Shown here in pieces: positions 3,315 through 56,829 of a stretch of DNA of 64,000 nt. How positions within the stretch are numbered: the first letter of the stretch is position 1; each line of letters begins with the position of its first letter. The stretch covers positions 1,736,001 to 1,800,000 of the forward strand of contig NZ_CP104040.1 in assembly GCF_025152745.1 (NCBI RefSeq). Reading direction: 5' to 3'. Position numbers and translations under genes: made by a program. The notes beneath the pieces were generated by a model. The model did not search any database and was not told where the DNA came from. It worked only from the letters and a program-made list of their open reading frames with translations. The stretch comes from Rhizobium sp. WSM4643. Lineage in GTDB: Bacteria > Pseudomonadota > Alphaproteobacteria > Rhizobiales > Rhizobiaceae.

Positions 3315-3713
3315 ATGTGGAATCTTCTGGTTCAGACCTTTACCTGGTGGAACGGTCAGACGATGGGCACGCGTTTTGCGACCTGGCGTTTTGGCAAGCG
3401 CGTCGGCGAGGATGAATTCGGCAACGTCTACTACGAAGGCGGCATGTCTTCCTACGGTCTGCCGAAGCGTTGGGTGATCTACAAGGGTTATGCCGAAGCC
3501 TCCGCCATTCCGCCGGGTTGGCATGGCTGGATGCATCATCGCACCGATGTTCCTCCGTCCAAGGAGAGCTACGTCGCCAAGGAATGGCAGAAGCCGCACC
3601 GTCCCAACCATACCGGTTCATCGCAGGCCTATCGTCCGCCGGGTTCCATCTCCGTTCCGGGCGAGCGTCCACGAGTCACCGGCGATTACGACGCCTGGAC
3701 GCCAGGCAACTGA
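3315..3713 (+). CDS. Complex I NDUFA12 (B17.2)-like subunit
   Basis: The 132-residue product matches the alphaproteobacterial homologues of mitochondrial complex I accessory subunit NDUFA12 (17.2 kDa). Family features visible are the N-terminal WWNGQTMGTR, a DEFGNVYYE strand, the RWVIYKG and PPGWHGWMHH core, and a Pro-rich C-terminal tail. These proteins bind the membrane/peripheral arm junction of NADH:ubiquinone oxidoreductase. The ATG at 3315 is preferred to one 33 bases earlier because the family begins at MWNLL and AAGGAAAAG lies just upstream. The main nuo operon is not in this window. Confidence 0.93.
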   Translation: MWNLLVQTFTWWNGQTMGTRFATWRFGKRVGEDEFGNVYYEGGMSSYGLPKRWVIYKGYAEASAIPPGWHGWMHHRTDVPPSKESYVAKEWQKPHRPNHTGSSQAYRPPGSISVPGERPRVTGDYDAWTPGN

Positions 3714-3829
3714 GACGGCCCGACCGGGGCGATCCCAAGACCCGGCTTTTGGCCACAATTGACCTTTACCCGCAGGTTGGCCGCGCTTGACCGCGGCGGT
3801 GAACTGAAAATGTCTGGAGACGGGTACAC

Positions 3830-4264
3830 ATGAAGCTCTTCACGCGGAACATGGTGCTGCGTGCCGCCGGATCGCTGCTGGCGCTTTTGGCCCTGCTTCC
3901 GCCAGTTGCGGCAAATGCCGCACGCATCGAAAATCCGGTTGCCGTCTTCTCCGGCCTCGACAAGATCACCGGCCGCATCACGACCTTCGACGTCTATGTC
4001 AATGAGACGGTACAGTTCGGCGCGCTGCAAGTGACACCGAAGGCCTGTTATTCGCGCGACCAGGCAGAAGCCCAGAAGATCGACGGTTTCGTCGAGGTCG
4101 ACGAGATCACCCTAGACCGCAAGATCCGCCGGATTTTCACCGGCTGGATGTTTGCCGCCAGCCCCGGCCTCAATGCCGTCGAGCACCCGATCTACGACGT
4201 CTGGCTGAAAGACTGCAAGGCAAACTCGGATGTCCCGGCGCCTGACGGCGCCAAGGCGAAATAA
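3830..4264 (+). CDS. DUF2155 exported protein
   Basis: This 144-residue protein has an N-terminal signal peptide (hydrophobic run about residues 11-27, ending near ANAA) and a DUF2155 domain. That domain shows the typical start IENPVAVFSGLDKITGRITTF, a VQFGALQVTPKACYSR segment and a C-terminal GWMFAASPGLNAVEHPIYDVW. DUF2155 is common in alphaproteobacteria, located in the periplasm, with no assigned function. It lies just downstream of the NDUFA12-like gene on the same strand and converges on aat. An ATG preceded by GGAGACGG supports the start. Confidence 0.92.
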   Translation: MKLFTRNMVLRAAGSLLALLALLPPVAANAARIENPVAVFSGLDKITGRITTFDVYVNETVQFGALQVTPKACYSRDQAEAQKIDGFVEVDEITLDRKIRRIFTGWMFAASPGLNAVEHPIYDVWLKDCKANSDVPAPDGAKAK

Positions 4265-4297
4265 CTGCGTCTTCGCTGGTCTTCGGCACCCTCCACA

Positions 4298-4332
4298 ACC
4301 CGACGCGTGGAACGAGGTGATCCACGACGGGT
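4298..4332. terminator. Hairpin between convergent genes
   Basis: In the gap between the DUF2155 gene and aat there is an imperfect inverted repeat, ACCCG-x-x-GCGTGGA against TCCACG-x-x-GGGT, with a nine-base loop. No U-tract follows on either side, so terminator function is only suggested by its place between two convergent stops. Confidence 0.3.
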
Positions 4333-4374
4333 AAGGACGATATTGTCTGCCGAATTTTACTCTGAAAACGATCC

Positions 4375-4989
4375 TCAGAATTCCAGATGCGGCGATTCCA
4401 TCGCCGCCGCAAGCATCATGGCATAATCGGCCTTCGGAACGTCGATCGCTCCGAACGTCTTCAAGTGCTCGGTAGTGAACTGCGTGTCGAGCAGGGTGAA
4501 GCCCTTTTCCCGCAGCCGGTCGACCAGATGCACGAGGCAGATCTTCGAGGCATCCGTCCGGCGCGAAAACATGCTTTCGCCGAAGAAGGCCGAGCCGAGC
4601 GAGACGCCATAGAGGCCGCCGACCAGTTCATTGCCCTCCCAGGCTTCGACGGTATGGGCATGGCCCATGTCGAAGAGCGTCGCGTAAAGCGATCTGATCG
4701 TCTTGTTGATCCAGGTGCTCGGGCGCCCGGATGTCTCCTCCGCACAGGCAGCAATGACCTGATCGAAAGCGTGATCGAAACGGATATTGAAGCGTTTCTT
4801 GCGCACTGCCTTGGCAAGGCTTTTCGACACATGGAAACGGTCGAACGGCAGCACGCCGCGGAGTTCCGGTTCGACCCAGAAAATCTCCGGATCGTCGGCG
4901 GATTCGGCCATCGGGAAGAGCCCGATGGAATAGGCGCGCAGGAGAATGTCAGGGGTTATGCCTGGTGACTTCCTGCGCGATCCTGCCAT
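4375..4989 (-). CDS. aat: Leucyl/phenylalanyl-tRNA--protein transferase
   Basis: The 204-residue enzyme adds Leu or Phe to the N-terminus of proteins beginning with Arg or Lys, marking them for ClpS-ClpAP. The family pattern [23 protein letters not shown] is near the N-terminus (FPMAE and the W-x-x-P-x-x-R-G block), and later ones include [20 protein letters not shown] (here [23 protein letters not shown]) and [16 protein letters not shown]. The ATG at 4989 was chosen because AGGACAGG lies directly upstream and the family starts there; the frame remains open further 5' into accC. The gene follows accC by seven bases, so aroQ-accB-accC-aat look like one transcript. Confidence 0.96.
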
Positions 4990-4996
4990 TCCTGTC

Positions 4997-6346
<1,350 letters not shown>

Positions 6347-14756: not shown

Positions 14757-15974
14757 ATGGAAGAGTTTCACAAAGTCCGGCGTTTGCCGCCTTACGTTTT
14801 CGAACAGGTCAACCGTTTGAAAGCAAGCGCGCGAGCGGGCGGCGCCGATATCATCGATCTCGGCATGGGAAACCCAGACCTCCCCACTCCCCAGTCGATC
14901 GTCGACAAGCTGTGCGAGGTCGTGCAGGATCCGCGCACGCACCGCTATTCCTCTTCCAAGGGCATTCCGGGCCTGCGCCGCGCCCAGGCCGCCTATTATG
15001 CCCGTCGTTTTGGTGTCAAGCTCAACCCGGATACCCAGGTGGTCGCCACCTTGGGCTCCAAGGAAGGGTTCGCCAATATGGCGCAGGCGATTACGGCGCC
15101 GGGCGACGTGATCCTCTGCCCGAACCCCACCTATCCGATCCACGCCTTCGGCTTCCTGATGGCGGGCGGCGTGATCCGTTCCATGTCGGTGGAGCCGGAT
15201 GCGAGCTTCTTCGAACCGCTGGAACGTGCCGTCCGGCATTCGATCCCGAAGCCCTTGGCGCTGATCCTCAACTACCCCTCGAATCCGACGGCTTTTGTCG
15301 CGACGCTCGATTTCTACAAGGACGTCATCGCCTTTGCGAAAAAGCACGACATCATCGTGCTTTCCGACCTTGCCTATTCGGAAATTTACTTCAACGGCGC
15401 CCCGCCGCCCTCGGTTCTTGAAGTGCCGGGCGCGATGGACGTGACCGTCGAGTTCACCTCGATGTCGAAGACTTTCTCCATGCCCGGCTGGCGCATGGGC
15501 TTTGCCGTCGGCAACGAGCGGCTGATCGCGGCGCTTACCCGCGTCAAGTCCTATCTCGACTACGGCGCCTTCACGCCGATCCAGGTGGCGGCGACGCATG
15601 CGTTGAACGGCGATGGTTCCGACATTGCGGAAGTCCGCAACGTCTATAAACGCCGCCGCGACGTCATGGTCGAAAGCTTCGGCAAGGCTGGGTTCGAGGT
15701 GCCGCCGCCGGCTGCGACGATGTTCGCCTGGGCGAAGATCCCGGAAAAGTTCCGTCATCTCGGTTCGCTGGAATTCTCCAAGCTGCTGGTCGAGAAGGCC
15801 GACGTCGCCGTTGCGCCGGGCATCGGCTTCGGCGAAATGGGCGACGACTACGTCCGTCTGGCACTTGTCGAGAACGAACACCGCATCCGCCAGGCTGCGC
15901 GCAACATCAAGAAGTTCATGTCGACGGCAGACGAGACGATGCACAACGTGATCTCGCTGAACGCCCACCGCTAA
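14757..15974 (+). CDS. alaC: Alanine aminotransferase (AlaC type)
   Basis: The 405-residue PLP enzyme resembles E. coli AlaC (YfdZ) along its whole length: RRLPPYVFEQVN at the start, IIDLGMGNPDLPTP, GSKEGFANM, PNPTYPIHAFG, LNYPSNPTAF and the cofactor lysine in TSMSKTFSMPGWRMGF. It would transfer the amino group between alanine and 2-oxoglutarate; related rhizobial proteins are also labelled LL-diaminopimelate aminotransferase-like. The ATG at 14757 has GGGGAATGAG upstream; an ATG 12 bases earlier is possible. It lies 61 bases before hom on the same strand. Confidence 0.9.
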   Translation: MEEFHKVRRLPPYVFEQVNRLKASARAGGADIIDLGMGNPDLPTPQSIVDKLCEVVQDPRTHRYSSSKGIPGLRRAQAAYYARRFGVKLNPDTQVVATLGSKEGFANMAQAITAPGDVILCPNPTYPIHAFGFLMAGGVIRSMSVEPDASFFEPLERAVRHSIPKPLALILNYPSNPTAFVATLDFYKDVIAFAKKHDIIVLSDLAYSEIYFNGAPPPSVLEVPGAMDVTVEFTSMSKTFSMPGWRMGFAVGNERLIAALTRVKSYLDYGAFTPIQVAATHALNGDGSDIAEVRNVYKRRRDVMVESFGKAGFEVPPPAATMFAWAKIPEKFRHLGSLEFSKLLVEKADVAVAPGIGFGEMGDDYVRLALVENEHRIRQAARNIKKFMSTADETMHNVISLNAHR

Positions 15975-16035
15975 TCCAACCGTTGGGCAGCCGCGTTCGG
16001 CGGCTGCCGCCACACAGACATTTCAGGATCGATCC

Positions 16036-17361
<1,326 letters not shown>

Positions 17362-51410: not shown

Positions 51411-52247
51411 ATGTTCCGATCGAGTCTTGTCGCTCTGCTTCTTGCCAGCGTTTCCGCCAATGCATGGGCGGCTGCGCCCGCGGTAAGCGCTGCGATCGCG
51501 ACCGGCCTCGTCGCACATCGTGCGGTCTACGATCTGGAATTGAAGGACGCCTCGGACCGCTCTGGCATCGCCGCCATGTATGGTCGCATGGTCTATGAGT
51601 TCGATGGCAGCTATTGCCAGGGCTTCACCACCAATTTCCGCTTCGTGACGCAGATCGACACCGGCGACAACGTTCGCGTCAGCGACCAGCAGACGAAGAC
51701 CTTTGAGAACCTGAAGGACGGCAAGTTCACCTTCGACACTAAGTCCTTCACTGACGACCAGCTCGACAAGGAGGTCAACGGTGCGGCTCAGGATCAGCCG
51801 GATGGTGTCAAGGTCGATCTGACGCAGCCGGCGAGCCGCGAGCTGCAGCTTTTAGAAAGCCGTTTTCCCACAGAACATATGCTCGACGTGATCCAGCACG
51901 CCAAGGACGGCAAGCGCTTCTTCGAGGCGCGAGTCTTCGACGGTTCGGACGACGGCGACAAGTCGCTGGTGACGACGACGATCGTCGGCAAGCAGGAGAC
52001 GCCGATCGCCGAGGAAACCGATGCCGGTAACGCCGGCGCTTTCTCCAAGACGGCCTTCTGGCCGGTAACGATCGCCTATTTCAACGAGAGTGCGAAATCC
52101 GATGCTTTGCCGGTCTACCGCATGTCGTTCAAGCTTTATGAGAACGGCATCACCCGCGACCTGACGATGGATTATGGCGACTTCGTCCTGACCGGCAAGC
52201 TCGCCAAGCTGGAGCTGCTCGACCGCAAGGCCGAGGTTTGCAAATAG
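51411..52247 (+). CDS. eipB: Periplasmic envelope-integrity protein EipB (DUF1849)
   Basis: The 278-residue protein has a signal peptide (residues 1-21) and a DUF1849 beta-spiral domain. The Cys at residue 69 (GSYCQGFT) and the Cys at 277 are at the places of the disulfide of Brucella EipB (Cys69 and Cys278), which is strong support. EipB keeps cell-envelope integrity. It is followed by a PHO-box-like site and the TelA operon. Confidence 0.9.
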   Translation: MFRSSLVALLLASVSANAWAAAPAVSAAIATGLVAHRAVYDLELKDASDRSGIAAMYGRMVYEFDGSYCQGFTTNFRFVTQIDTGDNVRVSDQQTKTFENLKDGKFTFDTKSFTDDQLDKEVNGAAQDQPDGVKVDLTQPASRELQLLESRFPTEHMLDVIQHAKDGKRFFEARVFDGSDDGDKSLVTTTIVGKQETPIAEETDAGNAGAFSKTAFWPVTIAYFNESAKSDALPVYRMSFKLYENGITRDLTMDYGDFVLTGKLAKLELLDRKAEVCK

Positions 52248-52262
52248 GCGACGAGATCTCGC

Positions 52263-52286
52263 CTGTCATAAAACTGTATCATAAAA
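52263..52286 (+). promoter_or_regulatory. PHO-box-like direct repeat
   Basis: CTGTCATAAAA is followed at once by CTGTATCATAAAA. This is the two-unit PHO box (CTGTCAT-N4-CTGTCAT, 11-base spacing) except for two extra bases (AT) in the second unit. It lies 16 bases after the eipB stop and about 150 bases before telA. PhoB control is inferred. Confidence 0.5.
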
Positions 52287-52438
52287 TTCACTATGGTTCG
52301 GCGATCAGCGATGACTGAGTCGCCGTCTGTCGTCCTGCTTTTCGGGTCGGTGCGATCCGAGCGGCCAAGCCATTGCGATGACGTCTATCTGTCAGACCGC
52401 GTAGACCATTACGCATCGCAAGCTTGAAAGCCCGAACC

Positions 52439-53515
52439 ATGGCCGACACGGATCTCGCGACTGTTCAAAATGCCGCCCTGCCGGTTGTCGTCGGCGATCC
52501 GGCGGAAATTGCCCGCATTTCCGATAGCATCGACATCACCGACCGCGCCGGCATCTCGGTCTATGGTGACCGCGCCCAGCAGGCGGTCAGCGATTATGCC
52601 GACAGGATCCTGCGCGAAGTTCGCAACAAGGACCTCGGCGATGTCGGCCGCCTGCTGACCGACATCATCCTCAAATCGAAGAGCCTCGATCCGGCGTCAT
52701 TGAAGGATAAGGGTTTCCTCAGCCGCATGTTTTTCTCGGCCAAGGCCCGCCTCGAACGCTTCAAGGCGGAATTCGAGGACGTGGCCGGCCAGATCGACCG
52801 GATCGGCCTGGAACTCGACCGTCACAAGGATACGCTGAGGCGCGACATTGCGCTGCTCGACGACCTGCATGAGGAAACCCGGCAATCGATCATGCGGCTC
52901 GAGGCCTATGTCCAGGCCGGCAAGACTTTCGCCGAGCGTTTTCGCAGCGTCGAGCTGCCGAGGCTGAAGGCGCAAGCCGAGGCGGCAGCGACAGGCCCCG
53001 GCGGCGGCATGCTGGAGGCGCAGACCTATCAGGACAGCCTGCAGGCGCTCGACCGGCTGGAAAAGCGGGTCTTCTACCTGCAGCAGGCCCGCCAGCTCGG
53101 TATCCAGCAATTACCGCAGATCCGCATCGTTCAGGCGGGCGACGAAACGCTGATCGAGAACCTGCAGGCGACTTCGGCGCTGACGGTGCCGGCCTGGAAG
53201 CAGAAGATGGTGATCCTGCTCGGCCTGACGCGGCAGAAATCGGCGCTCGACCTGCAGAAGGCGGTGACCGACGCCACCAACGACATGATCCGCCAGGCAT
53301 CCGAGATGATGAAGGATCAGGCGATATCAATCGAGCAGCAGTCGCAGCGCGGCATCGTCGATATCGACACGCTTGCCAAGGCGAACAGGGATCTGATCGA
53401 TACGATATCCGGCGTGCTGCAGGTTCAGGAGGAGGGTCGGCGAAAGCGGGCGCTCGCCGAGCAGCAGATGGAGCAGATGACGATCGAACTCAAGAAGGCG
53501 ATGACCCAGGCGTGA
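52439..53515 (+). CDS. telA: TelA family (toxic-anion resistance) protein
   Basis: The 358-residue protein is all-helical with long coiled-coils and matches TelA/KlaA-type proteins: DYADRILREVRNKDLGDVGRLLTDI early, KDTLRRDIALLDDLHEET, the LQTLDRLEKRVFYLQQARQLG-like segment (here LQALDRLEKR), and QTIPQIRIVQ-like (LPQIRIVQAGDETLIENLQAT). Despite the name, most TelA proteins have no shown role in tellurite resistance. The ATG at 52439 is used; a TTG in frame 15 bases earlier exists. It overlaps the next gene by four bases (GTGA). Confidence 0.92.
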   Translation: MADTDLATVQNAALPVVVGDPAEIARISDSIDITDRAGISVYGDRAQQAVSDYADRILREVRNKDLGDVGRLLTDIILKSKSLDPASLKDKGFLSRMFFSAKARLERFKAEFEDVAGQIDRIGLELDRHKDTLRRDIALLDDLHEETRQSIMRLEAYVQAGKTFAERFRSVELPRLKAQAEAAATGPGGGMLEAQTYQDSLQALDRLEKRVFYLQQARQLGIQQLPQIRIVQAGDETLIENLQATSALTVPAWKQKMVILLGLTRQKSALDLQKAVTDATNDMIRQASEMMKDQAISIEQQSQRGIVDIDTLAKANRDLIDTISGVLQVQEEGRRKRALAEQQMEQMTIELKKAMTQA

Positions 53516-55098
53516 TCGGCAAGATGGCGATGCGAGCACTGCTTTCAGGCTTGGCACTTCTTGCAGCTCTGCCCCTTGCCGGCTGCAATCCCTTCGGCCA
53601 GGGGCCGGATTTCTCGATCGTATCGGGATCGGAGAATACCATTCTGCAGCCGATCGTTGAGGAATTCTGCAAGCAGAAGAACGCCACCTGCACCTTCAAA
53701 TATGAAGGCACGCTCGATATCGGCCTGGCGTTGCAGAGCGACGAGGGCGTCGCGCAGGATGCGGTCTGGCCGGCTTCCAGCGTCTGGGTCGACATGTTCG
53801 ACACCAAGCGCCGCGTCAAGAGCTTGACCTCGATCGCTCAGACGCCGGTGGTCTTGGGTGTGCGCAGATCGAAGGCGCAGCAGCTTGGCTGGATCGGCAA
53901 GGATGTATTCATGAAAGACATTCTCGCTGCTGTCGAGAGCGGATCACTGAAGTTCCTGATGACCTCGGCGACGCAATCCAATTCGGGCGCCAGCGCCTAT
54001 CTTGCCATGCTGTCGAGCGCACTCGGCAACAAACCGGTAATCGAACCCGGCGATCTCGACGACAGACACGTCCAGGAAAGCGTCCGGTCGCTGCTGTCAG
54101 GTGTCGTGCGCTCTTCCGGTTCTTCGGGCTGGCTCGCCGATCTCTATGTCGAATCCGCCGGCAAGGGCACCGTCTATGACGCGATGTGGAATTACGAAGC
54201 GGTGCTGAAGGAAACCAACGACAAGCTCGCTGCCCTGTCGCAGGAACCGCTTTACGCCATCTATCCGGCTGATGGTGTGGCCATGGCGGATTCGCCGATC
54301 GGTTTCGTCGATCATGGCCGCGGGCCAGAAGTCCAGACCTTCTTCAACGATCTGCTCGCCTATCTGAGCTCTGCCCCCGTGCAGCAGCGCATCGCCGATA
54401 GCGGCCGGCGCATTCCGCTGACCGGCGTTGCCGCAAAACCGGAGCCGAGCTGGAATTTCGATCCCGCCCGGCTGGTGACGGCGATCCGCATGCCGGAGGC
54501 GAGCGTCATCCGCCAGGCGCTCAACCTTTATCAGGCGGCGCTGCGCAAACCGTCGTTGACCGCGCTCTGCCTCGATTTTTCCGGCTCGATGCAAGGTGAC
54601 GGCGAGGACCAGTTGCAGAAGGCGATGCGTTTCCTGTTGACGCCCGACGAAGCGAGCAAGGTGCTGGTGCAATGGTCGCCCGCCGATCAGATTATCGTCA
54701 TTCCCTTCGACGGCAACGTGCGCAGCACGTTCGTGGCGAGTGGAAACCCGCTGGAGCAGGAAGGGCTGCTGAACGAGATTTCCCGCCAGAAGGCCGATGG
54801 CGGCACGAACATGTATGCCTGCGCCGAACGAGCTCTGCAGCAGATTGCCCGAACCGACAGGCTCTCGACTTATCTGCCTGCCATCGTCATCATGACCGAC
54901 GGCAAGTCCGATGATCAAAGCCAGGCTTTCATGCGTTCATGGAACGCGATGGAGCCACATGTGCCGATCTTCGGCATCACATTCGGCGATGCCGACAAGA
55001 CGCAGCTCGACAGCCTCGCCAAGCTGAGCTCAGCGCGCGTGTTCGACGGCGGCTCGGACCTCGCCACCGCCTTTCGTACGGCGCGGGGCTATAATTAG
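53512..55098 (+). CDS. Lipoprotein with binding-protein-like and C-terminal VWA domains
   Basis: The 528-residue protein has a lipobox LAGC (Cys about 25), a type II solute-binding fold (residues about 30-330; ILQPIVEEFCKQ, MTSATQSNSGASAYLAML as ligand loop), and a VWA domain from about residue 355 with a MIDAS site (LDFSGSMQG, the D-x-S-x-S motif) and a later ADGGTNMY. A binding-protein fold fused to VWA is unusual. It probably sits on the outer face of the inner membrane or in the outer membrane leaflet. GTG start overlaps telA. Confidence 0.85.
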   Translation: MIGKMAMRALLSGLALLAALPLAGCNPFGQGPDFSIVSGSENTILQPIVEEFCKQKNATCTFKYEGTLDIGLALQSDEGVAQDAVWPASSVWVDMFDTKRRVKSLTSIAQTPVVLGVRRSKAQQLGWIGKDVFMKDILAAVESGSLKFLMTSATQSNSGASAYLAMLSSALGNKPVIEPGDLDDRHVQESVRSLLSGVVRSSGSSGWLADLYVESAGKGTVYDAMWNYEAVLKETNDKLAALSQEPLYAIYPADGVAMADSPIGFVDHGRGPEVQTFFNDLLAYLSSAPVQQRIADSGRRIPLTGVAAKPEPSWNFDPARLVTAIRMPEASVIRQALNLYQAALRKPSLTALCLDFSGSMQGDGEDQLQKAMRFLLTPDEASKVLVQWSPADQIIVIPFDGNVRSTFVASGNPLEQEGLLNEISRQKADGGTNMYACAERALQQIARTDRLSTYLPAIVIMTDGKSDDQSQAFMRSWNAMEPHVPIFGITFGDADKTQLDSLAKLSSARVFDGGSDLATAFRTARGYN

Positions 55099-55105
55099 GA
55101 CAGGC

Positions 55106-55723
55106 ATGCGCAACTGGCTCGGCAATGACGGCAACTGGATCGTAGCGGGACTGGCGGCGGCAATCACCGTGCCGTTCTTGAGCTTTGCCGCCGGCATGCC
55201 GTTCTGGATCGCTGCCATCATCGCCCTCCTGGTCTTTGCCGGCCTTGTCATTCTGCTTGCACCGCGCCGGCTGTTCGAAGGCCTCGATATCAAGCGCATC
55301 GGCAGTGGACGCGTCGCCTTTGCCCGCGACCTGCTGGAGGCCGCCGTTCCCTTTGCCGAACGCCTGGAGACTGCCGCGGATGTGATCGGCGACAAACAGA
55401 TGGCGGCCGCAGTCCGGCATCTCGCTGAAATCGCCGCCGATGTCTTTCGAAAGGTCGAAGCCAAGCCCGAAAGTGCCAATGCCGTGCGGCGGTTCCTCTC
55501 CTATTATCTGCCGCGTTCTGCCGAGCTGGCGGAAGGGTTTGCCGTCATCGAGGCCAAGCGCGTTCCCGACCTCAAGCAGCTGGAGGAAGTGCGCGGCGTG
55601 CTGGTGAAGCTCGAAGAGGCCTTCGTCCATTATGCCGACAGTCTGGTTGATGAGGAACTCGGCACGCTCGACACCGATCTGCGCCTCATCCAGGCATCGC
55701 TCAAAGAGGATATCGGACGCTGA
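55106..55723 (+). CDS. XpaC-like membrane protein (5-bromo-4-chloroindolyl phosphate hydrolysis family)
   Basis: The 205-residue protein has two close membrane helices (about residues 13-30 and 34-52), then a helical, soluble part starting LEGLDIKRIGSG-like (FEGLDIKRI) with LEVVRRFLSYYLPRS-like NAVRRFLSYYLPRSAELAEGFAVIE. This is the arrangement of XpaC, which is paired with a TelA protein (YceH-type) in Bacillus too. Function unknown. It is linked to the genes on both sides by seven bases and a one-base overlap. Confidence 0.8.
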   Translation: MRNWLGNDGNWIVAGLAAAITVPFLSFAAGMPFWIAAIIALLVFAGLVILLAPRRLFEGLDIKRIGSGRVAFARDLLEAAVPFAERLETAADVIGDKQMAAAVRHLAEIAADVFRKVEAKPESANAVRRFLSYYLPRSAELAEGFAVIEAKRVPDLKQLEEVRGVLVKLEEAFVHYADSLVDEELGTLDTDLRLIQASLKEDIGR

Positions 55724-56829
55724 TGGCCCTTTCTCGTCGCGCCTTTGGAGTGGGACTGCTCGGAGCCGGCGTCGCGGGCACCGGCGGTTATTTCGCCGTC
55801 CGGGATCGGCCGGAATTGCAGGGCCTGCTCGGCAGCCGCAAGACGTTGTTCGGCTTCATCGGCGGCGAGAAGGAGGCCTTCCTGGCCGATCCTGACGTCA
55901 TCAGGGCGCTCGGCGGATACGGGTTGACGGTGGACAGCCGCGTCGCGGGCTCCGTGGAGATGGTCCGCGAACAGGCGCTGCTGTCGCAGCGTCCGCAATT
56001 CCTCTGGCCGTCCTCCTCGATCATGGTCGATATCGCCAGGCAAAACGGCATCAATATCCGCGACGACCGCGTCGTGCTGAACACACCGATCGTCGTCTAT
56101 TCCTGGCAGCCCGTCGTCGACGGACTGATGAAAGCGGGATTGGTGACGGTGACGAACGAAGGTCATCATCAGCTCGACCTCAAGGCGTTGCTTGATGCGA
56201 TTCTTGCCGGATCCGACTGGTCGAAGCTCGGCGTCAATTCGCTCTACGGCCGCGCCCGCATCGTCTCGACCGATCCGAACCGCTCGAATTCCGGCTTCAT
56301 GTTCGCCGGCCTCGCGCTCAGCCTTTTCAGCGGCAATGTCGCGACATCAGGTGACCTTGCTACCTTTGGCGGCAAAGTGCAGGCGATCTTCCGCAATATG
56401 GGCTTCAAGTCACCATCCTCAGGCAAGCTTTTCGACCAGTATCTGGCAGGCGGCCTCGGCGGCGAGCCGATGATCGTCGGCTATGAGAACCAGCTGGTCG
56501 AATGGATCCTCGCCGATCCCGCGCGATGGGAACGCATCAAGGCGAGCGCCGGCGCAAAGCCCGTGGTGCTCTATCCGCGCCCGACCGTTTATTCGGCACA
56601 TCCGCTGATCGTCGTCGACGAGAGCGCCAACCGGCTGATCGAAGCGCTGGTGAGCGCGAAGCTCCAGGAACTTGCCTGGACGAGACACGGCTTCCGTGGT
56701 CCGCTGGGAACTGCCACCGGTAATGCCGACAGCACGATCGGCTCTCTGCTGCCGGCCGAGGTCGATGCCATCCTGCCGACGCCGGATGCGGGCGTCATGC
56801 TGTCGCTGCTGCCGACACTGCTAAGCTAA
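55723..56829 (+). CDS. Periplasmic binding-protein-like protein with twin-arginine-type signal
   Basis: The 368-residue protein starts LSRRAFGVGLLGAG, a twin-arginine-like signal. The mature part looks like a type II binding protein of the phosphate/sulfate/molybdate type: ILAGSDWSKLGVNSLYG, and STDPNRSNSGFMFAGLALSLF with a Ser-Asn-Ser-Gly ligand loop. It shares the SNSG loop with the lipoprotein two genes before, so they may be related parts. The ATG uses the last A of the previous TGA (TGATG), so translation is coupled. No ABC permease is nearby. Confidence 0.82.
   Translation: MALSRRAFGVGLLGAGVAGTGGYFAVRDRPELQGLLGSRKTLFGFIGGEKEAFLADPDVIRALGGYGLTVDSRVAGSVEMVREQALLSQRPQFLWPSSSIMVDIARQNGINIRDDRVVLNTPIVVYSWQPVVDGLMKAGLVTVTNEGHHQLDLKALLDAILAGSDWSKLGVNSLYGRARIVSTDPNRSNSGFMFAGLALSLFSGNVATSGDLATFGGKVQAIFRNMGFKSPSSGKLFDQYLAGGLGGEPMIVGYENQLVEWILADPARWERIKASAGAKPVVLYPRPTVYSAHPLIVVDESANRLIEALVSAKLQELAWTRHGFRGPLGTATGNADSTIGSLLPAEVDAILPTPDAGVMLSLLPTLLS

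Follow-up and report, generated by a model that had tools for sequence, protein, structure and literature searches.

A conserved TelA-XpaC gene set with two predicted binding proteins and a putative Pho box in Rhizobiales

RESULTS

Four genes occupy positions 52439-56829 of the window (the whole stretch of DNA analyzed, 64,000 nucleotides of Rhizobium sp. WSM4643) and encode, in order, TelA, an SBP-VWA lipoprotein, XpaC, and SBP4, as assigned from Pfam and the sequence. The existence of this four-gene set is confirmed, and its operon layout is a result of computation. The genes and the predicted upstream elements are as follows.

52263..52280, + strand: CTGTCATAAAACTGTATC, predicted PhoB (Pho) box; a 7-base direct repeat in two copies, 11-base spacing; 12/14 consensus positions
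52292..52297, + strand: candidate -10 hexamer TATGGT, 11 bases past the Pho box, proposed from the sequence
52439..53515, + strand: TelA of 358 aa, from the toxic anion resistance family; PF05816, E 5.6e-94
53512..55098, + strand: SBP-VWA lipoprotein, predicted N-terminal type II binding-protein domain and C-terminal VWA with MIDAS; start 53512, 53524, or 53530
55106..55723, + strand: XpaC, 205 aa, two predicted N-terminal membrane helices; PF10112, E 5.7e-26
55723..56829, + strand: SBP4, the second of the predicted type II binding proteins, without a Pfam family; its N-terminus is Tat-like (SRRAF)

As the earlier note had claimed, the sequence reads GTGA, the 7-base gap GACAGGC, and TGATG at the three junctions. 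The GTGA overlap between TelA and SBP-VWA carries the caveat that the GTG start of the latter is uncertain, since the close homologue P0121 starts at MRALLSG, corresponding to ATG 53530; a start at that ATG would leave a 14-base gap after TelA and no overlap. An alternative TelA start at TTG 52424 is also possible.

TelA covers positions 3-331 of the 332 in the PF05816 model with 315.4 bits (curated cut-off, 30), and XpaC reaches 92.1 bits against PF10112 (curated cut-off, 29.8); each is the sole match to its profile in the genome. According to hydropathy, TelA has no predicted membrane segment, and XpaC has predicted membrane helices at residues 12-30 and 33-51, with the remainder probably cytoplasmic given the positive charges that follow the second helix. 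Sequence comparison with solved structures gave no convincing relative for TelA and only designed helical proteins for XpaC. A TelA search of plasmids returned 612 records, every one below 60% identity.

The SBP-VWA protein matches SBP_bac_11 (E 1.4e-11) and VWA (E 4.7e-9) in Pfam and has a lipobox at Cys25. Its MIDAS (D355-x-S-G-S, G430-G-T432, and T462-D-G) is invariant across 27 aligned sequences. Structure prediction gave both exported proteins a binding-protein fold, a point set beforehand as a refuting test of the earlier note, and we accordingly describe them as predicted two-lobe type II binding proteins. The S-N-S-G loops that the note had seen in both are present at residues 156-159 of SBP-VWA and 188-191 of SBP4. 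The two proteins are paralogues. For SBP4, a sequence search of solved structures extended to E 10 found no relative. For the SBP domain, the nearest solved sequences are P5PA (E 3e-4), the 6lki/6lkg binding protein (E 3e-3), and then ferric-binding proteins (E 0.012); the S-N-S-G aligns on S-G-T-T inside the R-S-S-G-T-T segment of P5PA. Foldseek placed 6lkg, a structure that we take to be HptA, first among its top eight matches for SBP-VWA; the remaining places went to AfuA, a pair of ferric binders, and further proteins that bind G6P or P5P. Structure comparison gave sulfate-binding proteins as the best structural match of SBP-VWA. The VIA-align tables are limited to Foldseek's own matches and thus do not exclude families outside them. 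By sequence and by model, the nearest solved relatives of the SBP domain are binders of phosphate esters, one of which signals with no transporter. Since iron-, sulfate-, thiamin-, and polyamine-binding proteins all share the type II fold, it does not fix the ligand.

Gene order, the second point set beforehand as a refuting test, was conserved in 77 of 80 SBP4-bearing Rhizobiales loci, 75 of them intact and 2 with a split ORF. Of the others, two have no adjacent TelA (L052 and L078) and one is cut by a contig end. Selection was by SBP4, keeping the best 80 of 181 loci, which include five named Rhizobiales genera and many near relatives. Because 77 loci keep the order, the association is far beyond chance, and a chance cluster was rejected. 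Flanking genes differ from genus to genus while the set itself is kept: the EipB and rpsB-tsf flanks were found in Rhizobium, Neorhizobium, and several other Rhizobiales loci but are absent from Devosia, Mesorhizobium, and Bradyrhizobium loci, so membership of the set in either neighborhood was also rejected. In whole-genome searches that scored part of the candidates from a first look, SBP4 occurred in at least 7 of 299 genomes of the phylum; TelA was matched in at least 50 of the 299, and these include every genome with SBP4.

Forty TelA loci were also compared, a selection that omits the window's close relatives and some of the weak hits. The set recurs in circularly permuted form in Betaproteobacteria and in a single actinobacterial locus, with the same cyclic order across three permutations, and is present without an adjacent TelA in Deinococcus, where likewise a single locus was covered. 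The corresponding gene in the beta-, actino-, and deinococcal loci is termed XpaC-like: none of eight such proteins matches PF10112, and HHalign finds remote similarity only to XpaC (prob 73, E 3e-5). We found no published description of the four-gene set in the literature searched.

The window agrees with the earlier note in having no ABC permease beside the set. Its eight scanned flanking genes, from clpA to tsf, are housekeeping or envelope genes; none is a histidine kinase, and they provide no adjacent permease and ATPase genes of an ABC importer. Elsewhere, Devosia L054 has two ABC permeases and a glycerophosphodiester phosphodiesterase directly upstream of the set, L056 a partial ABC permease, and L172 an exporter-type ABC gene immediately downstream; neighbor clustering found a group including ABC ATPases in 6 of 17 loci, mostly at least 3 kb away. 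By eye, L052 has an apparent permease fragment upstream. One copper-chaperone gene lies near the set in Sphaerotilus, and in Variovorax one flotillin and one Wadjet gene are nearby. At E 0.1 none of the four proteins had a PADLOC match, and a TelA family is their only strong PHROGs match; a phage or defense cassette was rejected on these grounds. A full Ter system was rejected as well, as the genome has 0 TerD matches.

When the upstream region of the window was aligned with those of 45 Rhizobium, Neorhizobium, and other Rhizobiales loci (46 regions in all), its predicted Pho box (dinucleotide-shuffle p=0.0025) proved conserved, and the CACTAT.GT surrounding the candidate hexamer partly so. 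A raw three-mismatch pattern was not significant in the window (4 found versus 3.43 expected). Box scores on a 14-point consensus were compared between 78 cassettes and 997 control upstreams, the latter belonging to predicted ORFs, some inside operons. A score of at least 12 was reached by 38/78 cassettes versus 4/997 controls, and one of at least 13 by 20/78 versus 0/997; none of 36 TelA loci without SBP4 reached 12. The 40 cassettes below 12 include all six loci of the AFS/BK196 group. Because the motif was spotted in Rhizobium before other lineages were tested for it, its score in Rhizobium does not count as independent evidence. Boxes scoring above that of the window occur in Neorhizobium, Devosia, Mesorhizobium, and Bradyrhizobium cassettes: 14/14 is reached in Mesorhizobium L064 and L070, in L047 (Rhizobiales, grouped with Neorhizobium), and in the MAG L056, and 13/14 in Neorhizobium L029, Devosia L052 and L054, and Bradyrhizobium L082 and L083. 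No clear Pho box was found ahead of the set in L117, L153, L154, L155, L156, L157, L158 (at SBP4), L171, L172, or L173; the box of L138 is borderline (11/14, p=0.0095), and a Streptomyces-type PhoP box at the actinobacterial locus was not significant (p=0.07). In Sphaerotilus, the set lies 4 bases downstream of phoX, whose box scores 12/14 (p=0.0005).

The genome itself has nine Pho boxes with at most one mismatch versus none for the reversed pattern. One of the nine adjoins, on the other strand, a DUF3419 gene that is presumably btaA. Strong phosphate induction is reported for btaA (PMC8829014). The other boxes have no assigned phosphate genes, so the scan is a weak positive control only. A paper on phosphate stress in S. 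meliloti names no tellurite or toxic anion genes in its main text, which bears on the set only if S. meliloti carries it. Like the conservation, predicted folds, and paralogy, the Pho boxes are computed results. At the level of sequence, Pho control is well supported for Rhizobiales as a group, not for every cassette, and PhoB would probably act at 52263-52280.

DISCUSSION

The predicted PhoB box, the paralogy of the binding proteins, the Tat-like SBP4 start, and the presence of the set beyond its own phylum go further than the earlier note. Our best explanation, put forward tentatively and with somewhat less than even confidence, is an envelope sensor/effector module that is induced on phosphate starvation and has the TelA-XpaC stress pair at its base, the four genes forming one operon of the Pho regulon in Rhizobiales. 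We infer its ligand, localization, pairing, signal direction, and output as follows. Under low phosphate, PhoB would activate the operon from its box, and the two ancient paralogous binding proteins would act in the periplasm, SBP-VWA as a lipoprotein with VWA/MIDAS and SBP4 with a Tat-like signal that may leave it membrane-anchored. Both may bind a phosphate-like anion or phosphate ester, feeding no ABC transporter of their own. Ligand binding would alter the pairing of the two proteins, via the MIDAS, and their pairing with the membrane protein XpaC, which would hold TelA at the inner membrane face. The outcome would be TelA-XpaC envelope protection matched to phosphate supply. The sensing or scaffolding role that the earlier note had proposed in place of transport fits the gene order and folds, but its direct ligand-to-XpaC route is not obvious, because the stretch between the two predicted membrane helices of XpaC is very short.

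One of the systems closest to it is the XpaC-TelA (YaaN) pair that Firmicutes carry (xpaC-yaaN in B. subtilis, lmo1966-1967 in L. monocytogenes, and llmg_1115-1116 in L. lactis), in which the same two families are encoded by adjacent genes in an envelope-stress setting. That pair consists of two genes only, with XpaC first, its accessible descriptions mention no binding proteins or VWA, and it is under sigma-W or envelope-stress control, whereas a Pho box is found here. It is placed in the core sigma-W regulon of B. subtilis, appears in a transcriptome table of the CesSR (envelope stress) paper, and is linked to the Listeria response under bacteriocin; the literature consulted states its envelope-stress mechanism as unknown. 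HptA of the S. aureus HptASR system is described as a secreted sensor of G6P, a phosphate ester, that signals to a membrane partner, the kinase HptS; it differs in that this partner is a histidine kinase and in having no VWA, TelA, or XpaC. The phosphate-ester binders P5PA, the nearest solved sequence, and AfuA are alike in fold at 10-13% identity, but here one binder is fused to a VWA domain and the window has no importer genes next to the set. Variovorax and Streptomyces have proteins whose name, "substrate-binding and VWA domain-containing protein", implies the same two-domain architecture; the Variovorax one belongs to the same module, and the name comes with no function. Ter stress systems include TelA, with the VWA protein TerF named beside it, but their description, as available, has no binding proteins, and this genome has no TerD.

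Among other explanations, the set could be a toxic-oxyanion shield: phosphate uptake under starvation would also admit tellurite or arsenate, the binding proteins would capture the anions, TelA-XpaC would protect the membrane, and the Pho box would time this with uptake. The family name (toxic anion resistance), the weak, 2-fold tellurite phenotype reported for a TelA-homologue mutant (PMC12791056), the sulfate-binding best structural match of SBP-VWA, and the reported entry of tellurite into E. coli mainly via the phosphate transporter PitA (PMC3501828) speak for it, but we consider it unlikely. The larger, 4-fold nisin effect in that mutant and the lack of TerD count against it.

Scavenging, in which the binding proteins would pass phosphate compounds to an ABC transporter encoded elsewhere while TelA and XpaC organize the surrounding membrane, draws on the binding-protein fold, the Pho box, the ABC genes of L054 and L056, and the clustered ABC ATPases. 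We regard it as quite improbable: most loci examined have no adjacent ABC importer gene, as in the window's scanned flanks, and a VWA fusion is unusual for importer subunits.

The repeat might instead be the site of another regulator, leaving the operon unconnected to phosphate. Only 12/14 positions match in the window, the three-mismatch search was at chance level, and many cassettes score no higher than controls; against these stand the 997 upstreams, the shuffles, the 36 TelA loci without SBP4, and the Sphaerotilus phoX linkage, which make such a misreading very doubtful. Envelope defense, the role proposed for TelA-containing Ter-type systems in resisting phages or toxins, seems least credible: a jumbo-phage review puts TelA among sub-membrane components thought to block entry (PMC7824862) and the Variovorax set lies near flotillin and Wadjet genes, but PADLOC and TerD searches were negative, the window neighbors are housekeeping or envelope genes, and a Pho box would be unexpected.

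Returning to the favored sensor/effector module, a bolder version, possible but rather unlikely in our estimation, is a widespread PhoB-controlled transmembrane sensor of phosphate compounds that uses no kinase or ABC transporter, with the paired binding proteins (one VWA/MIDAS) as ligand-gated outer receptor and XpaC-TelA as inner output. If true, it would explain what TelA-XpaC respond to. TelA-XpaC is here tied to two receptors of a fold whose ligands can be measured and to a well-understood regulon, and this tie makes the long-open TelA-XpaC question testable.

Gene set and export signals

The reading frames, domains and junctions of the four genes match the earlier description of an operon for TelA, a binding-protein/VWA lipoprotein, XpaC and a second binding protein (Pfam; sequence reading). 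The features of the set and its upstream region are as follows (positions in the window):

51411-52247, EipB-like gene (PF08904, E 4.4e-86), its end separated from telA by 191 bases
52263-52280, predicted PhoB box (Pho box), directly past the stop codon of the EipB-like gene
52439-56829, the set, in this order:
gene 1, TelA (Pfam)
gene 2, SBP-VWA, a lipoprotein with SBP_bac_11 and VWA domains (Pfam)
gene 3, XpaC (PF10112; Pfam)
gene 4, SBP4, the second binding protein, with zero family matches in a Pfam scan

The start codon of gene 2 is uncertain because a close homologue starts 18 bases downstream. The genome holds one TelA match and one XpaC match, both inside the set. That the four genes form one operon and a self-contained module, and that the two binding proteins are paralogues, is well supported. 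Gene 2 has a lipobox, which lies within 40 residues in 112 of the 117 full-length homologues among 120 listed. Gene 4 begins with MALSRRAFG, a Tat-like motif that, by the known consensus, we take to be a putative Tat signal; RR occurs near the start of all 117 full-length homologues among 120 listed, and [STN]RRx[FL] in 113 of them.

Conservation and permutation of the gene order

A contig search with the gene 4 alignment gave 181 loci encoding a relative, of which 80 were kept for comparison (compared loci carry L-numbers); they are titled Rhizobium, Neorhizobium, Devosia, Mesorhizobium and Bradyrhizobium, or other Rhizobiales, Rhizobiaceae and alphaproteobacterial isolates. The set is conserved, as the order TelA, SBP-VWA, XpaC, SBP4 is intact in 75 of the 80 and present in two more (L017 and L062) with one split reading frame. 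TelA is not adjacent in L052 and L078, and L080 ends at a contig end. The genes split into two frames are TelA in L017 (6664-7793) and SBP-VWA in L062 (7807-9407), which may reflect sequencing errors or decay. An upstream EipB and a downstream rpsB-tsf are common to Rhizobium, Neorhizobium and several other Rhizobiales loci and absent from those of Devosia, Mesorhizobium and Bradyrhizobium. The set is patchy: gene 4 was present in 2 of 151 sampled family genomes and in 7 of 299 sampled phylum genomes, all seven falling within the 50 that have a TelA match.

The set appears to be a variant of the TelA-XpaC kind. Among 40 TelA loci drawn from the order and phylum surveys, TelA occurred with XpaC in 26 and SBP4 was found in 4; neither was detected in 10. 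Two orphan TelA genes (L131:6415-7515 and L132:6353-7492) resemble the cassette type (E ~1e-165); neither XpaC nor binding proteins were detected around them. At L142:7537-8958, TelA is followed by two tandem XpaC-type genes. On IncP plasmid pBS228 (L159:3192-5128), the gene preceding klaB encodes a short TelA-like protein (E 1e-10), so this locus has two TelA homologues.

Relatives of genes 2 and 4 also lie near each other in Nonomuraea (Actinomycetota), Deinococcus, Variovorax and Sphaerotilus (plasmid records). Searching protein sequences for relatives of the SBP4 from Nonomuraea returned 1563; among the 120 listed, those that carry a name are mostly actinobacterial, and 38 of the 120 have RR near the start. 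Gene orders outside the main set were read with profiles from broad alignments. The order SBP4, TelA, SBP-VWA, XpaC-like was found in L138, L155, L157, L158, L171, L172 and L173, and SBP-VWA, XpaC, SBP4 with a divergent TelA at L153:2856-7555, evidence that the module is permutable; the three orders are rotations of a single cycle. Since the XpaC model was built with L138, L153 and L155-L158, only L171-L173 are independent hits among the permuted loci. In the Deinococcus locus (L156), the set lacks an adjacent TelA. Pfam recognized the XpaC protein of L153 (E 8e-20) and none of the eight XpaC-like proteins of the beta, actino and deinococcal loci, and the comparison of XpaC and XpaC-like profiles was moderate (prob 73, E 3e-5).

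Neighboring genes were clustered in 17 loci. The largest group (6 loci: L056, L081, L117, L153, L155 and L172) includes ABC transporter ATPases. Distances of about 3 kb or more separate most genes of this group from the set; L172 has an exporter-type ABC gene beginning 27 bases downstream of XpaC. A glycerophosphodiester phosphodiesterase group covers 4 loci (L007, L029, L054 and, as a fragment that Pfam did not recognize, L056), and a LysR-regulator-like group 3. Upstream of the set, Devosia L054 carries two permeases along with the phosphodiesterase, and in Sphaerotilus a phoX gene (PhoX, E 1.1e-169) ends 4 bases before the set starts. On the Variovorax plasmid (L157), a flotillin gene and its OB-fold partner lie near the module, as do Wadjet JetA-type genes (3503-5898, 15256-16816).

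Predicted Pho boxes upstream of the set

When the region upstream of the set in the window was aligned with those of 45 loci (46 regions in all), a strongly conserved block emerged, GTCATAAAACTGT. It is built like a PhoB box, for which a passage of PMC4415409 gives two directly repeated 7-base units separated by four bases (CTGTCAT in E. coli). Sites were scored against CTGTCATNNNNCTGTCAY at 14 positions, from 250 bases upstream to 50 inside; L076 and L080 were excluded for their short flanks, leaving 78 cassettes. Scores of at least 12 were reached in 38 of the 78 and at least 13 in 20, compared with 4 and 0 of 997 regions upstream of predicted genes elsewhere in these loci.

Cassettes with a Pho box score of at least 12, by our own grouping
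R. leguminosarum/etli: 12 of 15
AFS/BK196: 0 of 6
R. tropici group: 8 of 21
Neorhizobium with R. populisoli, R. terrae and L047: 4 of 4
Devosia: 3 of 3
Mesorhizobium: 8 of 21
L056/L078: 1 of 2
Bradyrhizobium: 2 of 6

In dinucleotide shuffles, the best sites in five groups gave p 0.0005 and the window box p 0.0025; a plain pattern search of the window alone was not significant. None of the 36 TelA loci without SBP4 scored at least 12, and one scored 11. In L052, which lacks an adjacent TelA, the box precedes the remaining genes. Pho boxes in front of the set are well supported in several Rhizobiales lineages. The phoX gene of Sphaerotilus carries a box as well, scoring 12/14 (p 0.0005 by mononucleotide shuffle). 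Against a Pho link stand, besides the non-significant search of the window, a borderline box in L138 and the lack of a clear box in L117, L153, L154, L155, L156, L157, L171, L172 and L173. Elsewhere in the genome that holds the window (L180:1501-2753), a one-mismatch box stands directly before a DUF3419 gene on the opposite strand.

Proposed function

Excerpts of earlier work list XpaC and TelA homologues as core sigma-W regulon members in B. subtilis (PMC3498285), tabulate them with transcriptome values in the L. lactis CesSR study (10.3 and 3.44; PMC3139573) and place them among Listeria genes up on bacteriocin (PMC12791056); the last, citing Collins 2010, gives a 4-fold increase in nisin sensitivity and a 2-fold increase in tellurite sensitivity for a TelA-homologue mutant. 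Portions of other papers describe HptA as sensing glucose-6-phosphate and relaying the signal to HptS (PMC8774646), and PitA as the main tellurite entry route in E. coli (PMC3501828).

The boxes and the nearest relatives point to a phosphate-type ligand. The binding proteins might pair through the VWA MIDAS, XpaC would serve as membrane anchor for TelA, and the output may be envelope protection. How the binding proteins would connect to XpaC is the least secure step, because the two predicted membrane helices of XpaC lie almost back to back.

No published description of the set was present among the literature matches listed; Anantharaman 2012, outside that scope, may list part of it. The set proposed in the earlier note is real, conserved and without description in the literature searched, and the sensing idea put forward there takes a specific, testable form: phosphate starvation.
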